Origin: Thermoanaerobaculia bacterium
GTDB taxonomy: Bacteria; Acidobacteriota; Thermoanaerobaculia; Multivoradales; JAHEKO01
DNA length: 40,904 nt
NCBI GenBank assembly: GCA_945787635.1
Contig: CALZIK010000195.1
Location: 1-40,904, forward strand
Direction: 5' to 3'
Shown here: positions 25,620 to 33,708 of the stretch, in pieces
Layout of the letters: every line of letters begins with the position of its first letter
Position numbering within the stretch: position 1 is the first letter of the stretch
The notes under the pieces: generated by a model
Seen by the model: only the letters and a program-made list of their open reading frames with translations
What the model was told of the DNA's origin: nothing
The model's database searches: none
Position numbers and translations under genes: made by a program

Positions 25620-27305
25620 CTAGTGGAGGGCGGCCAGCGCTTCGGTTCTTGCCGCCTCGAACTCGTCGCCCGGGTTCCAGGTCGGCAGCTGGTCTTGCTC
25701 CGCGAGATGGAGCCCCATCTCGAATCCGAGGATCGCGTCCTCGATCATGCCGTCGAAGTCCCAGTCGTCGACCAGCTCATCCGAGGGTTGGTGATAGTGG
25801 ACCGCCTCCCAGGCTTCGATCTGCTCCTTGCCCCAGCCCTCGGGCCGATCCACGAACTCGGTGCCGGTGTCGAGATAGATCGCCGGAACGCCGACCTTGG
25901 CGAAGTTGAACTGGTCGGAGCGGTAGAAGAATCCCCGGTCCGGGAACTGATCGGGTTTGACGGTGCGTCCCTGTTCGCCCGCGAACATCTCGACGACCGC
26001 GTCCAAAGACGACTTGCCGTAGCCGATGTAGGTGACGTCCTTGGTCCTGCCCCAGATGTTGCCGCCGTCGTAGTTGATGTTGGCGGCCATCCGGCCGGCG
26101 GGAACCGGTGGGTTCTGCGCGAAATAGGCCGAGCCCAGAAGCCCTTGCTCCTCGGCCGCGACGAACGAAAGCATGATCGAGCGCCTCGGCTTGTCGGGCA
26201 TGGCGGCGAAAGCGCGCGCGATCGCGAGCACCTGGGCGCAGCCCGCGGCGTTGTCGAGTGCACCGTTGTAGATGTCGTCACCGGCGTCGTTGGCCTTGCC
26301 GACGCCCAGGTGATCGTGATGGGCCGAATAGACGATGTATTCTTTTGAGAGCTCGGGATCTCGCCCCGGGAGGGTTGCGACCACGTTGGCGGTTTCGACT
26401 CGCTGGACCTCATTAGTGAGCGTCAGCGATGTGGTGACCCCGAGCGACACGGGCTCGAAATCACGGCTCTTGGCGGCTTCGCGCAGCTGGTCGAGATCCT
26501 GACCGGCAAGCTCGAAGATCCGGTACATCGCGGCTTCGGAGGTCCAGGCGGGAATCTGGATTCGGGCCTCACCGGCAGTCGGTATCTCGAACTGCGGTCC
26601 GGTCCAGGATGACTGGACCACCTGGAACGGGTATCCCGCCGACGGGGTCGTGTGGATGATGATGGCGCCCGCCGCTCCCAGCTCGGCCGCCTTTTCGTAC
26701 TTGTAGGTCCAGCGACCGTAGTAGAGGCGTCGGTTTCCCTCGAAGAGATCATCCGACCAATCCGGATCGTTGTTGATGATCACCAGAACCTTGCCCGACA
26801 CGTCCATGCCTTTGAAGTCGTCCCAGTCGTACTCGGGCGCCTGAATGCCATAGCCGACGAAGACCAGCTCCGCCTCGGCGATCGAGGCGGTCTCCGCCTG
26901 GACGCCGCTCGAGGCGATGTACTCGTCCCACCACTGGAGCGAGACCTTCTTGCCGTCTTTCTTGAAGGTCCAGGTCGCCGGTGCGGTCGAGTTGACCCCG
27001 ACGATGTCGAAGGGCTGCTCCCAAGAGCCACCGGCCGCTCCCGGCAGGTAGCCGATTTCCTCGAGCTCGGCGATGAGATATTGCCGAGCCTTTGCGTCGC
27101 CCTCGCTACCCGGGCCGCGACCGCCGTATGCGTCGCTCGAGAGCTCGGCGACCGGGTCACGGAGGGCCTCCGTGGTGATCTGCGCGAGTGCGCCCTGAGA
27201 CTCGAGCAGTAGAGATTCCGTGGTAACGACTTCTTCCGCGGGCGGCGCGCACGCCGGAAGATTGACCAGTGCTGCGAGTGCGAGACAGAAAAGAGCCTTC
27301 TTCAT
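25620..27305 (-). CDS. M28 family zinc peptidase, lipoprotein
   Basis: A 561-residue lipoprotein: the signal peptide ends LVNLPAC-A. LRDPVAELSSDAYGGRGPGSEG starts the mature domain. A PA domain at about 100-290 contains LVFVGYGIQAPEYDWDDF and KVLVIINNDP. The catalytic region has VYSAHHDHLG, GALDNAAGCAQ, VAAEEQGLLGS, NINYDGG and HYHQPSDE, which supply zinc ligands and the general base. It is probably an aminopeptidase in the periplasm. GGAGGAATCAGA before the ATG is a strong Shine-Dalgarno. The ZIP gene follows. Confidence 0.93.
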   Translation of the reverse strand: MKKALFCLALAALVNLPACAPPAEEVVTTESLLLESQGALAQITTEALRDPVAELSSDAYGGRGPGSEGDAKARQYLIAELEEIGYLPGAAGGSWEQPFDIVGVNSTAPATWTFKKDGKKVSLQWWDEYIASSGVQAETASIAEAELVFVGYGIQAPEYDWDDFKGMDVSGKVLVIINNDPDWSDDLFEGNRRLYYGRWTYKYEKAAELGAAGAIIIHTTPSAGYPFQVVQSSWTGPQFEIPTAGEARIQIPAWTSEAAMYRIFELAGQDLDQLREAAKSRDFEPVSLGVTTSLTLTNEVQRVETANVVATLPGRDPELSKEYIVYSAHHDHLGVGKANDAGDDIYNGALDNAAGCAQVLAIARAFAAMPDKPRRSIMLSFVAAEEQGLLGSAYFAQNPPVPAGRMAANINYDGGNIWGRTKDVTYIGYGKSSLDAVVEMFAGEQGRTVKPDQFPDRGFFYRSDQFNFAKVGVPAIYLDTGTEFVDRPEGWGKEQIEAWEAVHYHQPSDELVDDWDFDGMIEDAILGFEMGLHLAEQDQLPTWNPGDEFEAARTEALAALH

Positions 27306-27483: not shown

Positions 27484-28092
27484 ATGAAGAGCGAACGCAG
27501 TCTGGGCGGTCTCAAGGCCGTGCTCGTGGTTACTGGTGTGGTCGTGGGCGGAGTTGTCGCGGTTCTGTGGCTCGCTTCGAGCGTGAGCCCGAGGCCGAAC
27601 GCGCATGGTGCGGCGGAATCGGTCGAGACGCTCTCGGTGGAGCAGGCGGTCGGCGAGCGGAGCGCGGCCATTGAGCCCGAGGAGCCGCGCTCCGGCACGC
27701 CGCTGGCGGCGCGAGCCGAAACGGCGTTGTCATCCCGCAGGGCAAACGAGCTCGCCGAGGTCGAGGCTACGGTCAGAGCCTGGGCGCGAGCCTGGTCCGA
27801 CCAGAGCGTCGAGGACTACCTGGATTTCTACAGCGTCGGCTTCGAGCCGGCCGACGGCACGCCGCTTTCAAAGTGGAGACAGGAGCGCTATCCGCGCCTC
27901 CGAGACCCGCGCCGGATTCGTGTCGTGCTCGGCACGATCGACGTGCGAATGGCGTCGTCCGACCTCGCCATCGCGAGTTTCAAGCAGTCCTACGAGAGCG
28001 ACATCTACACCGATCGTTGTCACAAGACGCTCGAGCTGGTTCGGGAAGACGGCGTCTGGGTGATCGAACGAGAGCTCGCCGAGGAGCTCTGA
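27484..28092 (+). CDS. membrane-anchored protein with an NTF2-like (Cds6-type) domain
   Basis: A 202-residue protein with one N-terminal membrane helix (about residues 13-34). A low-complexity Ala/Glu linker (40-85) follows, then a C-terminal NTF2-like domain. EVEATVRAWARAWSDQSVEDYLDFYS, VVLGTIDVRMASSDLAIASF and KTLELVREDGVWVIERE match the domain that often ends L,D-transpeptidases (Cds6 C-terminal type) or tetratricopeptide proteins. No transpeptidase domain is present. It probably binds a ligand or partner in the periplasm. Divergent from the M28 lipoprotein and convergent with mscL. Confidence 0.75.
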   Translation: MKSERSLGGLKAVLVVTGVVVGGVVAVLWLASSVSPRPNAHGAAESVETLSVEQAVGERSAAIEPEEPRSGTPLAARAETALSSRRANELAEVEATVRAWARAWSDQSVEDYLDFYSVGFEPADGTPLSKWRQERYPRLRDPRRIRVVLGTIDVRMASSDLAIASFKQSYESDIYTDRCHKTLELVREDGVWVIERELAEEL

Positions 28093-28106
28093 CGGCCCCA
28101 AAAGCG

Positions 28107-28135
28107 AAGGGCCGGAGTCGGAACCCCGGCCCTTT
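28107..28135. terminator. hairpin between convergent genes, probably a two-way terminator
   Basis: AAGGGCCGG and CCGGCCCTT form a perfect 9-bp stem with a 10-nt loop, followed by a short TTT on the plus strand. On the minus strand the stem is followed by CGCTTTT. It serves both the NTF2-like gene and mscL. Confidence 0.75.
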
Positions 28136-28157
28136 CCAGTCGGGTCGCAGGTCCGAT

Positions 28158-28580
28158 CTAGCCTTTGGCCAGGGAATCGCGGATCTCGGTCAGAAGCTTG
28201 ACCTCGTCTGAAGGCTCGGGCGGTGCCGTCGGAGCTTCTTCTTGCTTCTTGCGCATGTTGTTCATCGCTCGAATCATCATGAAAATGACGAAGGCTATGA
28301 TCACGAAGTCGACGACGTTCTGGAGGAACGCTCCGTACTTCATGATCGCGGCGCCGGCTTCCTCGGCCGCGGCTAGCGAGGCATACGAGTTGCCGTCGAG
28401 CGACGCGAACATGCTCGAAAAGTCGACACCGCCGGTGAACTTGCCGATCACCGGCATCAGCACGTCATTGACCAACGAACCGATGATCTTCCCGAAGGCG
28501 CCGCCGATGATGATACCGACGGCCATGTCCATGACATTGCCCTTCATCGCGAACTCTTTGAACTCTGACACCATGCTCAT
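28158..28580 (-). CDS. mscL: MscL, large-conductance mechanosensitive channel
   Basis: A 140-residue channel that opens under membrane tension and releases solutes after osmotic downshock. FKEFAMKGNVMDMAVGIIIGGAFGKIIGSLVNDV is TM1, shown here in parts by its motifs FKEFAMKGN and AVGIIIGGAFG. NVVDFVIIAFVIFMMI is TM2. The C-terminal bundle ends EVKLLTEIRDSL, as usual. AGGAGG lies 7 nt before the ATG at 28580. The frame continues upstream to 28655, but that extension has no homology. It has its own strong ribosome binding site and follows a terminator, so it is likely transcribed separately. Confidence 0.96.
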   Translation of the reverse strand: MSMVSEFKEFAMKGNVMDMAVGIIIGGAFGKIIGSLVNDVLMPVIGKFTGGVDFSSMFASLDGNSYASLAAAEEAGAAIMKYGAFLQNVVDFVIIAFVIFMMIRAMNNMRKKQEEAPTAPPEPSDEVKLLTEIRDSLAKG

Positions 28581-28640
28581 CCTGTTTCCTCCTGTGAAAA
28601 AGACAAAAACAACGCCCAGCCACCCGAGCGGCGGCGGGGC

Positions 28641-28673
28641 AAAAAAAAGACTCAACGCTTCCGTTGCGAGTCT
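28641..28673 (-). terminator. intrinsic terminator after the phytase-like/nuclease gene
   Basis: On the minus strand AGACTC-GC-AACG pairs with CGTTGAGTCT (2-nt bulge, GAAG loop), followed by eight T residues. It separates the nuclease operon from mscL. Confidence 0.85.
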
Positions 28674-28706
28674 AGCGAAGCGCTCCCAGTCCTCGCGATC
28701 GCGGTA

Positions 28707-31667
28707 TTAGGAATCGTGTTGCGATTCGGAGTCTTCTGCCGCGGCTTGCCGAATCCGAACGAGCACCGGATCGTGATCCGAGGCCCGGGAACCGTCGGGA
28801 AAATCAGCGTTCAAGTGCACGATGTCGATCTCGGGTGAAGCGCCGGCCAGGCTTGTGCTCACCAGAACGTGGTCGAGAACCTGCGAGTTGCCTTGGTAGA
28901 CATAGGTATAGCGATCGCCGGCCGGAACTGATTCCACTAGATTGGTCAGGCCCGAGTCGAGCAAGAGCAGGACGGGATCGCGGTACTCGTGCTCGTTGAA
29001 GTCGCCAACGACCATCGCTGCCGCCGCCGGGTCAAGCTCGAGAAGCCGGTCGACGAAACCGGCGACAACGCGCGCTTCTTCGGAGCGAAGAGGTTCGCTG
29101 GTGCGCGGAGGCGGCTGGACGCCGCCGAAAAGAGAGCCGTCACCCCGCTTCGAGCGCAGATGGACGTTGACCAAGAAAAGCCTCTGCCCGTCGACTTCGA
29201 ACTCGGCGACGAGGGGCTTCCTGACGCCGGTGAGGCTCCGAGCCGGGTCGGCTGAGAACGCGGGATGTCGAGCGCCGATACGGGCGGGGTTGGGGGACAG
29301 AAACGGTCCGTCCTCGTCCACCAGAAGCTCGGCCTCGCTGGCGGCGTCGGGCATGCCTCGCGAAACGAAGCCGACGCGATCCGGCAGGTAGAGGTAGGCG
29401 ACGCGAATGTTGGCTCCCGGCTGGCCGCCGTCGGCCTGGTTGCCCGGATCGATCTGGCAGTACTCGTACCGGGGTCCGCCGGCCGCGGTGATCGCTTCGA
29501 CCAGCCGCAGCAGAGTCCGTTCGGCGGTGACGGTGCCGTCGTCTTCGGGTCCGGTGTCGTCCTGGATCTCCTGCAGGGCGAGGATGTCTGGGGCCCCCAG
29601 GTTCTCGACGATCGAGCGTGCGAGACGAGCGTATTTTTCCGGTCCGCTTGTCGCGCTCAGGTTCTCTACATTGTAGGTGGCGACGGCGAGAGCTCGATCC
29701 GAGGAGAGAGTGGCGGTCTCGGGTTCGACGCCGCCCGAGAGGGGTACAGGAACCTCGTCGGCGAGGACCCGAAACCCACCGAAGGCGTAGTCGAGAACTC
29801 CGACGATCGGCTCCGGGAAGCGATCGCCGACGCTCGCTCTGGGAGCGGAGGAACGGTCAGGGGAAACGACCAAAAAACGCTCGGGGTGGAGGTCGCTCGC
29901 GGTGGCGATCAGACCGCCGGCGCGGGAGCGCAGCCGGGCGCCGTCTTCAAGCCCGCTTGCGGCGACGACGGCGAACTCGCCGAAGCGGGTCGTGGGTCCG
30001 ACGACCACCGAAGCGGGCACGGCGACGCGCATTCCTTCGAGGCTCTCGAAGAAGTCGATAGCGTCGCTGTCGGGCGAAAAGACCTCGAGGCCGTCGTCGT
30101 CGATTCGATCCGAAGGCAGTACTCGGCCCCCCGTCCCGCCTGCTCGTGATTCGATCGTGACCGGGGAGGGCAAAGGCGCGTGCTCGCCGGCGTCGACCAG
30201 GGCGCCTTCGAGGCTGGTGACCGTCAGGGCACCCGGAAACCCGCGCTCTCGAACCCAACCGGCGAGCTCGACGGTGGTCCCCGGCTCGAGCGCGGTCGCC
30301 TCTGCCGGCAGGACGAACAGTGCATCGCTGGTGTCGTGGTCTCCGTCGGAAGCGCCCTGCACCCAGAAGCCCGGCCCTCGCGCCGCGCCGGCGGTGACCG
30401 TGCCGCGCACTCCGCGAACCCAGGCTCCCTCGAGGTCCGAGCGGTGGCCGGCGCCTTGGATTCGGGAGATCTCGGGCCTTTCCTCGCCGATCGCGAACGC
30501 CAGAACCTGACCGCGCTGCCGCGGGTTGAAGTTGTTGTCGGCGATGACGAGGAGAGTGCGCCGGCCATCGGCGAGCCGCGGTCCGAGGGTCATCCCCTCG
30601 AGGTTGTCGAGCTCGATACCGAGCCCCGAGAGCTCGAGAAGCCGAGTCTTCTGGACCGGCGTGTAGCTGTATCCGAGGAGAGCTTTGGTCTTGCGGACGT
30701 CGCTGGCGCCGCCCAGCGAGACTAGAAAGAGATCGACCGCGTTACCCACGCCCTGGGTGTAGGAGCGCTCGAGAGCGAGCAGGTGGTCGTCGTCCAGAGC
30801 CAAAAGCTCTACCAGACCGCGCGTGCGAAAGGCCTCGGGATCTGGCGGCGCCTCGCCTACCGGATCGACCGTGTAGACGAACTCGGCCGACAGCCGCCCA
30901 CTGGCGCGCTCGTAGCGAAGGATGCGACTCGGGCTCGCAACACCGACGTCGGCTTCCGGGCCGTCCTGGCGAAGTGCGTTCTCGGTCGAGGAATAGAAGA
31001 ACCGGCCGCTCGGCGTGAGCGTCGCGCTCTCGAACCCGAGGTTGTGCCGGATGCCGCGCGTTTTCGACGGTTTTGGCAAGAAGTTGTCGGGAAGTGACAA
31101 CCCGCGCAGGTGCTGTCCGTCGAGGCCGACCTCGCGCAGGAAGGGATCAACACCTTGATCGGCCTGGCCCTCGGAAGACACGTAGAGCGTGTCGTCGGGG
31201 CTCAGCGCGATGCCCTCGCAGTCGAGGGTCATTTCGGCGAACGGGGCGCCGTCTCGATCCAGAAGGCGGGTCAAGGAAAGTGCTTCGACATCCTCCGACG
31301 TGAGAGAGCCGTCCGCGAGGTCGATGGTGAGAGTGAAGAAACGAGCCGGTCCCCGGGAAGCCGGGTCATCGGAGATCGCGTAGTAGACCTCGCGCTTCGG
31401 GTCGTAGGTGATCCCCGAGAGCCCGCCCACCGGGCTGCCCTCGACGAGCGCGTCCTCCGGGATCACCGCCTCGCCGAGGAATTCGAGCACGCCGATCTCC
31501 GGAGGAGCCGGGCTCAAGACGGAGGCGGTGGTCGAGGCCTGATCCGGCGCGGTCGCGGTAGACGTTGCGCAGCTAATCCAGATCGCCGCGGACGCCGCCG
31601 CGAGAAGAGCGCCCTTCACCCGAGCGAACTGGCGGCCCGCTCGGTCCCCTGGCTCCCGATGCGTCAT
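28707..31667 (-). CDS. phytase-like esterase plus ExeM/NucH-type nuclease fusion, lipoprotein
   Basis: A 986-residue exported protein with lipobox-like IWISC (Cys33). Residues 57-400 match the 'esterase-like activity of phytase' domain: GGLSGITYDPKREVYYAISD, LDCEGIALSPDDTLYVSSEG and LDNLEGMTLGP. Residues 405-640 look like the OB-fold region of ExeM/NucH nucleases (VRGVRGTVTAG, GFWVQGASDGDHDTSD). Residues 655-980 are an EEP nuclease: VATYNVENL, DILALQEIQDD, VNVHLRSKRGDGS, VVGDFNEHE (near 888), LDHVLVS and SDHDPV. It should degrade extracellular DNA and perhaps phosphate esters. The ATG overlaps the stop of nothing upstream but its own start lies 4 nt inside the end of the M28 gene. Confidence 0.9.
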   Translation of the reverse strand: MTHREPGDRAGRQFARVKGALLAAASAAIWISCATSTATAPDQASTTASVLSPAPPEIGVLEFLGEAVIPEDALVEGSPVGGLSGITYDPKREVYYAISDDPASRGPARFFTLTIDLADGSLTSEDVEALSLTRLLDRDGAPFAEMTLDCEGIALSPDDTLYVSSEGQADQGVDPFLREVGLDGQHLRGLSLPDNFLPKPSKTRGIRHNLGFESATLTPSGRFFYSSTENALRQDGPEADVGVASPSRILRYERASGRLSAEFVYTVDPVGEAPPDPEAFRTRGLVELLALDDDHLLALERSYTQGVGNAVDLFLVSLGGASDVRKTKALLGYSYTPVQKTRLLELSGLGIELDNLEGMTLGPRLADGRRTLLVIADNNFNPRQRGQVLAFAIGEERPEISRIQGAGHRSDLEGAWVRGVRGTVTAGAARGPGFWVQGASDGDHDTSDALFVLPAEATALEPGTTVELAGWVRERGFPGALTVTSLEGALVDAGEHAPLPSPVTIESRAGGTGGRVLPSDRIDDDGLEVFSPDSDAIDFFESLEGMRVAVPASVVVGPTTRFGEFAVVAASGLEDGARLRSRAGGLIATASDLHPERFLVVSPDRSSAPRASVGDRFPEPIVGVLDYAFGGFRVLADEVPVPLSGGVEPETATLSSDRALAVATYNVENLSATSGPEKYARLARSIVENLGAPDILALQEIQDDTGPEDDGTVTAERTLLRLVEAITAAGGPRYEYCQIDPGNQADGGQPGANIRVAYLYLPDRVGFVSRGMPDAASEAELLVDEDGPFLSPNPARIGARHPAFSADPARSLTGVRKPLVAEFEVDGQRLFLVNVHLRSKRGDGSLFGGVQPPPRTSEPLRSEEARVVAGFVDRLLELDPAAAAMVVGDFNEHEYRDPVLLLLDSGLTNLVESVPAGDRYTYVYQGNSQVLDHVLVSTSLAGASPEIDIVHLNADFPDGSRASDHDPVLVRIRQAAAEDSESQHDS

Positions 31668-33103
31668 CGCTCGCGCTGGGTGCGCGCGGGAGCCGGAAAG
31701 AAGGAAGTCTCGGTTTCGGCCGCGTAGAACGCGACGGTTGCATAGGCGGCGACGTTCTGGGCCAGCGCGTCCGGCGCCACTTTGTCGAGGGTGTCGTCCT
31801 CGGTGTGGTGGTAGTCGAAGTAGTAGGTCCCGTCCTGGGTGAGGTCTGCCACCGGAACCCGGGAGGTGTGAAGGTAACGCAGGTCGGCGCCGCCCCAGGC
31901 CGGGCCGGCATCAAAAGCGATCTCGAGTGGCTCGAGGAGCGTCGCGATGCTCTGCGCGGCGGTCCGGGCCGCCGGTTCGACCGACGCGGCGAATCGCCAG
32001 ACGTTGCCGGCGCCGAAATCCGACTCCATCGCCAGCTGGTGCGTGGTGAGCTCCGCTTGATGGGCCTGGGCGTAGGCTTCGGCGCCCGACAGGCCGAACT
32101 CTTCGTTGGCGAAGAGGACCACCCGGATCGTACGGCGGGGAGGCCGGTCGAGCGCCGCGATCAGCTTGGCCGCGGCGAGCGAGATCGCGCAGCCGGCGCC
32201 ATCATCGAGGGCACCGGTGCCGACGTCCCAGGAATCGAGGTGCCCGCCGAGAAGCACGATCTCGCCGGGCTTGTCCCGGCCGACGACCTCGCCGATGACG
32301 TTCGCCGACTGGGTGTTGGCGAGATAGCGACTGCCGAGGTAGAGATGAAACCTCACCGGCTGCCCGCGGCGAAGCTGGGCCTCGAGCACATCGGCGTCGG
32401 GAACCGCCAGCGCCGCCGCCGGAATGCGCGGCGTGTCTTCGGCGTAGCGCAGGGCTCCGGTGTGGGGAAAGCGGTGGGTACCGGTCCCCACCGAGCGGAT
32501 CAGCACGGCCACCGCGCCTTTGGCCGCCGCGGCCGACGGCCCGCGTCCGCGGATCGGCACGGTCTGCCCGTAGCCGCGCCCGTCCTGGCGCCGTTCCATC
32601 CGTCGGTTGAAGAAGACGATCTTGCCCGCGACCTCGGCGTCGGGGACCTCGACGAGCTCCTCGAGGCCGGCGACCTCGAGGATCTCGGCCTCGATGCCCG
32701 TTTCGGGCGTACCGACGCTGCCGCCGAGGGCGATCAGCTTCATCTCCTGGGGGTAGGGGGAGAGCGTGCGACCGCGGGCTTCGCCGCGCACCCACTGCGG
32801 GACCGTGACCGGTTCGGCTCGCACGTTCTCGAGGCCGAGCTCCTCCATCTTGGCTACCGCCCAGGCGACCGCGGCGCGGTCGCCGGCGCTGCCGGCGAAG
32901 CGGTGGCCCACCTCGGTGGTCAATGACTCGAGCAGCTCCCAGGCCAGTGGCGACGCCAGAGCCCGGTCACGCAGCTCGGCGGCGGTTTCGTCGATCGTGG
33001 CCGCACGCTGAGCCTCAGCCGCGGTCGTGATCGGGGCCGGCCCGAGAGCGGTCCAGAGCACGAGCGCCGCCGGAAGAATCGAGCGGTTACCGGACGTTGC
33101 CAT
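31664..33103 (-). CDS. carboxypeptidase Q-like M28 family peptidase, exported
   Basis: A 479-residue secreted metallopeptidase. The signal peptide runs to about residue 29 (ITTAAEA). WELLESLTTEVGHRFAGS begins the mature domain, and a PA insert spans about 125-265. Zinc-site motifs LLGGHLDSWDVGTGALDDGAG (shown as GGHLDSWD and DDGAG), NEEFGLSGA, ESDFGAGN and YHHTEDDTLDKV are those of the carboxypeptidase Q (PGCP) branch, which cleaves dipeptides. Its stop overlaps the ATG of the nuclease fusion gene (ATGA), so the two are coupled. A TACGAT box lies 8 nt before the start. Confidence 0.93.
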   Translation of the reverse strand: MATSGNRSILPAALVLWTALGPAPITTAAEAQRAATIDETAAELRDRALASPLAWELLESLTTEVGHRFAGSAGDRAAVAWAVAKMEELGLENVRAEPVTVPQWVRGEARGRTLSPYPQEMKLIALGGSVGTPETGIEAEILEVAGLEELVEVPDAEVAGKIVFFNRRMERRQDGRGYGQTVPIRGRGPSAAAAKGAVAVLIRSVGTGTHRFPHTGALRYAEDTPRIPAAALAVPDADVLEAQLRRGQPVRFHLYLGSRYLANTQSANVIGEVVGRDKPGEIVLLGGHLDSWDVGTGALDDGAGCAISLAAAKLIAALDRPPRRTIRVVLFANEEFGLSGAEAYAQAHQAELTTHQLAMESDFGAGNVWRFAASVEPAARTAAQSIATLLEPLEIAFDAGPAWGGADLRYLHTSRVPVADLTQDGTYYFDYHHTEDDTLDKVAPDALAQNVAAYATVAFYAAETETSFFPAPARTQRER

Positions 33104-33111
33104 GGCGGCGG

Positions 33112-33117
33112 ATCGTA
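33112..33117 (-). promoter_or_regulatory. -10-like box before the carboxypeptidase Q-like gene
   Basis: On the minus strand TACGAT, preceded by GC, ends 8 nt before the ATG; the interval CCGCCGCC cannot be a Shine-Dalgarno. It shares a 92-bp divergent gap with moaB. Confidence 0.5.
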
Positions 33118-33195
33118 GCAGACGGCTCGCATGTTTCCACAGGCGGCGCGAGCGCGCGTTGATACCATCGAGAGACTTCCCACGAGGTGATCTTC

Positions 33196-33708
33196 ATGAG
33201 CGAGTCAGCCGACTTCCACCGCCGTTCCGCGTCCGGCCAGATGGCGCGTTGCGCGCTCTTGACGGTGAGTGATAGCCGTACGGCCGACAACGACCGCGGC
33301 GGCGATGCCATTGCGAAGCGTGTCGGACGGGCCGGGCACGAGTTGGTCGATCGCCAGTGGGTGCGCGACGAGGCCCACGAGATCGCCAGGGTGTTGACCG
33401 AATGGCTCGCGCGGGACGACATCGGCGTCATCTTCACGACCGGCGGCACCGGCATCTCGACTCGCGACACCACGGTAGAGGTCGTCGAGCGCTTTCTCGA
33501 CAAGCGCCTGGACGGTTTCGGCGAGCTGTTTCGGATGCTCAGCTTCCAGGAGGTTGGAGCCGCCGCGATGCTCAGTCGCGCCGTCGCGGGACTCGCCCGC
33601 GGCGTGTTTGTTTTTGCGGTGCCCGGGTCGGTGGCGGCGGTCGAGCTGGCCTTCGACCGACTCATCGTCCCGGAGCTCGAGCACCTGGTATGGGAGCGAA
33701 AGCGCTGA
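33196..33708 (+). CDS. moaB: MoaB/MogA family molybdenum cofactor protein
   Basis: A 170-residue MoaB/MogA-type protein that adenylylates molybdopterin or a related intermediate. Motifs are CALLTVSDSRTADNDRGGD, FTTGGTGISTRDTTVE, a variant of the conserved TGGTG pterin-binding loop, MLSFQEVGAAAMLSRAVAG and FAVPGSVAAVELAFD (usually LPGSP). The GTG at 33187 is in frame, but GAGGTGA sits about 6 nt before ATG 33196, so I use the latter. No other molybdenum cofactor gene is nearby. Confidence 0.92.
   Translation: MSESADFHRRSASGQMARCALLTVSDSRTADNDRGGDAIAKRVGRAGHELVDRQWVRDEAHEIARVLTEWLARDDIGVIFTTGGTGISTRDTTVEVVERFLDKRLDGFGELFRMLSFQEVGAAAMLSRAVAGLARGVFVFAVPGSVAAVELAFDRLIVPELEHLVWERKR

Follow-up and report, generated by a model that had tools for sequence, protein, structure and literature searches.

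Introduction

Among described nucleases, the nearest in architecture to the protein reported here are ExeM of Shewanella and Xds of Vibrio, which, like this protein, carry an OB-like region followed by an EEP domain with its catalytic residues. The available part of the ExeM study describes a sugar-unspecific endonuclease that needs Ca2+ and Mg2+/Mn2+ and is composed of a lamin-tail domain (LTD), an OB-like region and the EEP domain (PMC6085458). Another chain of this kind, deposited as an EEP domain-containing protein, has been crystallized (9SF8/9SF9); our search of the literature found no paper describing it.

Beta-propeller phytases (PF02333) are six-bladed. The phytase name is also carried by a second domain, PF13449, whose records in several phyla are named "esterase-like activity of phytase". 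In the accessible text of one study, the esterase-like phytases are called not well characterized (PMC11219571), and we found no PF13449 member with a measured activity in the literature. The accessible portions of the literature on PF13449, on the phytase label and on ExeM-type nucleases yielded no description of a PF13449-nuclease fusion. A comparable joining of an enzyme to a propeller has been described for a SOD whose partner is a Ca2+-dependent propeller lactonase (PMC12362111, from the part available).

We analyzed a stretch of 40,904 nucleotides of a Thermoanaerobaculia bacterium (phylum Acidobacteriota), here called the window, in which one gene joins a PF13449 propeller to an OB-EEP nuclease. 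Both the ExeM-like OB-EEP nuclease and the PF13449 domain are known; what appears to be new is their fusion. The reading we prefer, whose chances we put at about even, is that the gene encodes an enzyme with two active sites, probably exported, that degrades nucleic acid outside the cytoplasm, with the propeller acting as a phosphoesterase and a neighboring M28 peptidase sharing in the scavenging.

Results

The fusion gene and its flanks

The fusion protein is encoded on the minus strand by one open reading frame of 986 residues (28707..31667), in which Pfam placed PF13449, named "Phytase-like", at residues 79-380 (290.4 bits; gathering cut-off 27.6) and the EEP family PF03372 at residues 663-965 (45 bits; cut-off 24.5). 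Its parts run in the order signal-like stretch (residues 1-33; 31569..31667), propeller (residues 60-394; 30486..31490), OB-like barrel (residues 416-496; 30180..30422) and EEP nuclease domain (residues 660-973; 28749..29690), all on the minus strand. The propeller, which is five-bladed in the predicted model, was delimited from Pfam, that model and alignments, and the EEP domain from Pfam, conserved residues and a fold model. Between them, residues 416-496 form a five-stranded barrel in the model, are covered by the 9SF8/9SF9 match and are presumably an OB fold; residues 500-650 carry no fold assignment. The fusion is no accident of frame, since relatives carry the same continuous fusion, and the single frame with PF13449, OB-like and EEP parts claimed in an earlier sequence-only reading of this DNA is thereby borne out.

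Directly 5' of the fusion, on the same strand, is an open reading frame of 479 residues (31664..33103) encoding a carboxypeptidase Q-like M28 peptidase (PF04389; 100 bits, cut-off 21.3). The coordinates of the two frames agree with the earlier claim of a 4-nt overlap, the shared nucleotides being ATGA. A MoCF-type gene lies divergently upstream of the pair and mscL lies downstream of the fusion. Two weak terminator-like hairpins with T-rich tails are located between the fusion and mscL on the minus strand (28666-28653 and 28630-28613). These correspond to the T-run terminator proposed for the pair, but the number of terminator-like sites in positions 28000-33400 (five) was within the range of shuffled sequence (3.3, sd 2.1).

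Judged by eye, the N-terminus has a signal-like stretch suited to export and lipidation that ends W-I-S-C, which departs from the usual lipobox at position -3. Both same-genus relatives have an LLGC lipobox, and a lipobox-like pattern occurs in 5 of 18 fused relatives. The fusion protein is probably exported; its earlier designation as a lipoprotein agrees with the signal-like stretch but less well with the off-consensus lipobox and with how few fused relatives have the pattern.

The nuclease half

The match between residues 400-972 and the 9SF8/9SF9 chains, which have no propeller, extends over almost the full length of those chains (E about 1e-88). The NCBI ExeM/NucH model NF033681 gave 137.4 bits, under its curated cut-off of 300, and we therefore refer to the fusion as ExeM-like and not as a member of that family. 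There was also a weak match to the ExeM-GG model at residues 393-479, over the OB-like region. In an alignment of the window EEP domain with 22 relatives (L077, L039 and L080 being among those left out), N666, E700 and H836 were invariant in the 23 sequences and D889, N891, D964 and H965 were kept in at least 90%. We take these to have the catalytic roles of the N, E, H, DxN and DH residues of EEP enzymes. Nocturnin, TDP2 and DNase I were among the EEP structures that the fold model of the domain matched, with Z 22-24. The residues E, D, H, N and H named for ExeM in the available text partly match those found here (PMC6085458).

Two differences from ExeM were apparent. The place of its N-terminal lamin-tail domain is taken here by the PF13449 propeller, and no lamin-tail match was found in the fusion by Pfam at E values up to 0.1. 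In addition, the C-terminus has no GG-anchor, unlike ExeM/NucH nucleases. By analogy with these enzymes, we infer that the OB-EEP half is a nuclease acting on DNA or RNA. The ExeM-type nuclease of the sequence-only reading thus holds as an ExeM-like one, based on the 9SF8/9SF9 match and the kept catalytic residues, at a score below that of the named family.

Occurrence of the fusion

A search for the domain architecture, which the sequence-only reading had suggested as a check, found both halves in one frame in 18 of 59 close genomes, the window's own included, and in G176, a genome from another family of the same class. In one of the 18, the contig stops inside the EEP half; a further genome was too truncated to judge. 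Stand-alone PF13449 places were about as many as fused ones in the 59 genomes. Across 297 genomes of the phylum, at least 18 had a match at E 1e-20 and at least two were fused (the window's own genome and G176); in another, G015, the two halves are separate genes on different contigs. Among 296 Bacteroidota genomes, at least 19 had a match, of which 17 were propeller-only and two OB-EEP-only, with none fused among those scored. Because no more than two candidates were scored from each genome in these two scans, the counts are lower bounds. A scan of genome contigs gave seven loci. Three were fused and a fourth partly so, these four all being from Acidobacteriota, and the remaining three were propeller-only; the four fused or partial loci (L024-L027) were not counted again beside G313, G303, G308 and G298.

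The fusion as a whole was not seen on plasmids: 74 of 72,556 plasmid records matched, and no place covered 80% of the fusion protein. PF13449 stood alone in five of six plasmid records inspected. These five proteins, of 376-406 residues and named "esterase-like activity of phytase", have the same domain and conserved residues as the window protein and no nuclease. On a tree of 36 PF13449 domains, 19 of them fused, the fused rows needed five changes on the free tree, and a single clade of fused rows, which one origin of the fusion would predict, was not rejected (p-AU 0.054).

Other arrangements of these domains were found. Other ExeM-like proteins found on plasmids differ in their extra parts: some combine a choice-of-anchor I domain with a 5'-nucleotidase C-terminal domain, and others have Calx-beta and Ig/cadherin modules. 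Nucleases of this type therefore do exchange modules. A protein of Indioceanicola profundi (WP_225890063.1; 1207 residues), whose gene adjoins one for a PhoX phosphatase, has EEP and PF13449 in one chain as here, in the reverse order and with an extra domain (GDPD - EEP - PF13449). Its EEP domain is not clearly like that of the window (BLAST E 0.002). Because the likeness is limited to 25 residues, the most likely reading is that this protein is an independent fusion with the order reversed. The two arrangements suggest, on sequence grounds, that pairing of PF13449 with phosphodiester-cutting partners recurs.

The M28 peptidase

By sequence, the M28 protein is closely related to the structure 3iib, titled Peptidase M28 (E 5.1e-127 over 434 residues), with the metal-site motifs aligned and no notable difference. 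The roles of the metal ligands and the name carboxypeptidase Q, the latter carried over from the sequence-only reading, are our assumptions. In 19 fused loci (the window and 18 others), M28 overlapped the fusion start by four nucleotides in four, the window, G297, G298 and G300, all of family f1. It was found about 1-2 kb upstream in two more (G304 and G309) and was not seen beside the other 13 fusions. Flanks are short on some contigs, such as those of L070 (1.1 kb upstream) and L068 (1.8 kb). The gene itself was detected at E 1e-60 in 40 of 59 relatives; in 17 fused relatives it was on the contig of the fusion in five, on another contig in nine and not detected in three (G305, G313 and G336).

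Pairing with M28 is therefore local to a few close relatives, as these counts show, and the general two-gene module proposed earlier is not supported. The lack of a conserved neighborhood in relatives, named at that time as evidence that would count against the proposal, was found for M28 outside family f1, while the overlap is kept in some f1 loci. All three fused loci examined in family f82 have a gene for an M14 zinc carboxypeptidase upstream on the same strand. It adjoins the fusion in two of them, whereas in L071 the distance is about 1.3 kb and open reading frames lie between. This hints, from that one family, at some benefit of having a peptidase gene here. Among 60 open reading frames neighboring the 13 fusions without M28, picked mechanically (four of the 64 listed were left out), no family was present in more than three members.

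Fold and kinship of the propeller

The propeller model, built from 36 PF13449 domains with a mean pLDDT of 93.9, has 20 strands, which we counted by eye from the DSSP line as five blades. Its best fold match was E. coli YjiK (3qqz; Z 21.6; 2.5 A over 228 residues), which stood 4.8 Z units above the fourth-ranked match; papaya glutaminyl cyclase (2iwa) was second (Z 19.9; 3.5 A; 224 residues). The matches that followed, at Z 15-17, were propellers of phage, NHL and apyrase type, and many of the fold matches are non-enzymes (NHL domains and phage tail proteins). Foldseek's own ranking was set aside as rich in WD40-type chains with a TM of about 0.3-0.4.

YjiK has no nuclease, and its sequence link to PF13449 was weak. 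PF06977, the YjiK family, gave weak matches in 11 of the 36 members (best E 0.00048), the window domain scored 13.3 bits against a cut-off of 21, and hhalign of the 36-domain profile with YjiK returned a probability of 11.5% over 28 columns. Kinship with YjiK consequently rests on the fold and on the Pfam hints. When solved structures were searched by sequence with the same profile, no relative was found among the three matches returned (best E 0.21).

The link to phytases proved weaker still. PF02333 was listed for none of the 36 members (at E values up to 10, where the HMMER filters drop most matches above about 0.1), and when the profile was compared by hhalign with a single PF02333 protein, the probability was 0.8%. 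The Pfam name is thus the only phytase link that we found. With five blades in the model against the six of PF02333, an ordinary phytase identity was not supported, nor was the "phytase-like" label in its plain sense. Within the phylum, PF02333 was found in 3 of 60 genomes, the window's own not being one of them.

A nucleotidase was also considered. The blade motifs presumably resemble those of the five-bladed calcium-activated nucleotidase, and an apyrase (1s18) was among the fold matches at Z 15.9, which NHL domains equaled. PF06079 was found in none of the 36 members and in none of 60 genomes of the phylum, the latter scan being no proof of absence because it also gave none in 14 control genomes. 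Nothing on an apyrase-PF13449 link was found in the literature, and we treat apyrase as a lead only.

Conserved charged residues

The PF13449 alignment used 35 of 37 relatives, the truncated L091 and L092 being left out. Ring sites were selected by aligning relatives that belong to the phylum of the window, and they were then checked in 15 further proteins: three from Alphaproteobacteria, one from a Betaproteobacterium, one from Bacillota and ten from Bacteroidota or from genomes placed there. Together with the 36 domains these made a set of 51; L029 is not part of it because it has stops in frame.

Two five-fold rings, mostly acidic, were evident in the propeller. One is formed by the first inner-strand position of each blade (S84, E151, E213, E287 and E357) and the other by the end of the second strand (D100, E166, E229, E300 and D377). 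Identical in all 51 sequences were E151, E213, E357, D100, E166, E229 and D377, as well as R248, R301 and N355; S84 (with one gap), E300 and N379 were identical in 50, and R109 in 49. The E287 position was the most variable of the rings, with E in 37 sequences, D in 11 and A or G in three. The rings and Arg248/Arg301 are therefore near-invariant in fused and stand-alone forms across phyla, a constraint that suggests a site for a metal and an anion.

Discussion

From the near-unchanged acidic rings and the two arginines we infer a metal-dependent esterase that works with the nuclease. In the two-active-site enzyme that we favor, the OB-EEP half would cut extracellular DNA or RNA as ExeM does. 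The central channel of the propeller would hold a divalent metal, probably Ca2+, the conserved arginines may hold a phosphate group, and the propeller would then hydrolyze phosphate esters released by the nuclease. The M28 peptidase, presumably co-translated through ATGA coupling in a few close relatives, would trim peptides, contributing to a common scavenging of nutrients without being an obligate partner. Feeding on nucleic acid is probably the purpose of the fusion. Our literature search found no assay supporting a two-active-site enzyme of this kind. Also counting against it are the many non-enzymes among the fold matches, the lack of any PF06079 (apyrase) or PF02333 listing for the 36 members, and the stand-alone state of PF13449, seen in all 17 Bacteroidota matches, in five of six plasmid records and about as often as the fusion in the close genomes.

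The recovery of phosphate, also claimed earlier, is plausible because of the chemistry and of the Indioceanicola case, but no regulatory or neighborhood evidence for it was found at the locus. No Pho box was detected in the window at up to three mismatches, with 1.27 sites expected by chance and with the proteobacterial consensus as query. The phosphate genes among the 60 neighboring open reading frames were one Na/Pi cotransporter and one PhoU, with none recurring, and a search for the locus with the cotransporter did not find it. Among the literature matches listed for the phytase label with phosphate starvation, none carried that label.

The alternative that survives best, although we consider it somewhat unlikely, is that the propeller has no catalytic role: it would be a binding or targeting module that tethers the nuclease to nucleic acid, to the cell wall or to partner proteins, with all the chemistry left to the EEP domain. 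Its fold matches include phage tail propellers and NHL domains, some of them RNA-binding (Z about 14-16), and related nucleases have, at the N-terminus, modules that are no known enzymes: Calx-beta, Ig/cadherin or choice-of-anchor I modules in the plasmid ExeM-like proteins, and the LTD in ExeM (PMC6085458). However, a module for mere binding would be expected to vary more than two charged rings and an arginine pair that are near-unchanged across phyla. A non-catalytic propeller unrelated to phytase esterases had been named beforehand as the finding that would speak against the sequence-only reading; the charged residues kept across phyla point away from it and leave it with the lesser probability given above.

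We would also entertain, as a somewhat unlikely extension of the two-active-site reading, that PF13449 is an unrecognized class of five-bladed metal-dependent phosphoesterases, unrelated to the six-bladed phytases and joined repeatedly to EEP and GDPD domains, and that one exported chain here would take nucleic acid to nucleoside and phosphate.

It is improbable that the propeller acts instead as a metal-dependent esterase, such as a lactonase, whose link to the nuclease serves export or stability and no shared pathway. One of the fold matches is the propeller of the Deinococcus SOD fusion (9m59; Z 15.6), and Ca2+-dependent lactonase activity is reported for that fusion, yet the accessible text places its propeller in the SMP-30 family with six blades (PMC12362111). 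Only one of the 36 PF13449 members gave an SGL (SMP-30-type) match, a weak one (E 0.055), and the enzymatic partners seen with PF13449, EEP and GDPD, cut phosphodiesters.

Very improbable is the earlier proposal of a true phytase, nuclease and peptidase forming a dedicated nutrient-recovery operon, which draws on the Pfam label, the ATGA overlap and the drawing of "esterase-like phytases" as a clade (PMC11219571, in the part available) but is opposed by the five blades, the want of a PF02333 link in the profile comparisons, the 13 of 19 fusions with no M28 seen beside them and the lack of a Pho box in the window.

Together, these results indicate that the original observation was largely sound and that its phytase and operon reading was too specific. 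As a caution for annotation of the family, the PF13449 label is not to be read as phytase. The fused gene suits a test of PF13449 activity because the nuclease supplies a likely substrate, and the SOD-lactonase fusion, as described in the available text, is a useful model for testing such fusions (PMC12362111). A near-invariant acid-and-arginine site, in a domain found in two fusion arrangements with phosphodiester cutters, would allow the function of PF13449 to be tested directly.

Gene order at the fusion locus

Comparison of the fusion loci indicated that the gene order MoCF, M28, fusion, (mscL), second M28 and xthA-like was conserved within the genus of the window, with no mscL seen in G298, a genome of the same genus, in this comparison. 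The second M28 peptidase gene (561 aa; window 25620–27305, minus strand) is situated beyond mscL on the downstream side. In two lineages the fusion is followed by a gene for a mechanosensitive channel, which is MscL in several genomes of the family containing the window (28158–28583 in the window) and MscS in another relative, G314 (locus L066, 7803–8696).

Proteins related to parts of the fusion

An EEP nuclease matching the OB-EEP half of the fusion is encoded on Sinorhizobium meliloti pSmeAK21b (L118, 3902–5656). Next to it are genes whose annotation is that of an ABC-three component system, and we consider this site a candidate defence locus. The 2021-aa protein of a Skermanella rosea plasmid (L101, 1392–7457) joins a 5′-nucleotidase C-terminal domain, choice-of-anchor I, EEP and RTX repeats.

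The source genome also encodes a second, unfused PF13449 protein (G000:C97:17904–19016; L041, 9893–11386), whose length of 498 aa was taken from the longest ORF. The approximately 130–160 residues N-terminal to its domain had no Pfam match at E 0.001.

In a secretome table for Teredinibacter turnerae, a 90.6 kDa protein that has a signal peptide is labelled “Esterase-like activity of phytase” (PMC12055684). Based on the size given in that table, which far exceeds that of the stand-alone PF13449 domain, this protein may be another multi-domain form.
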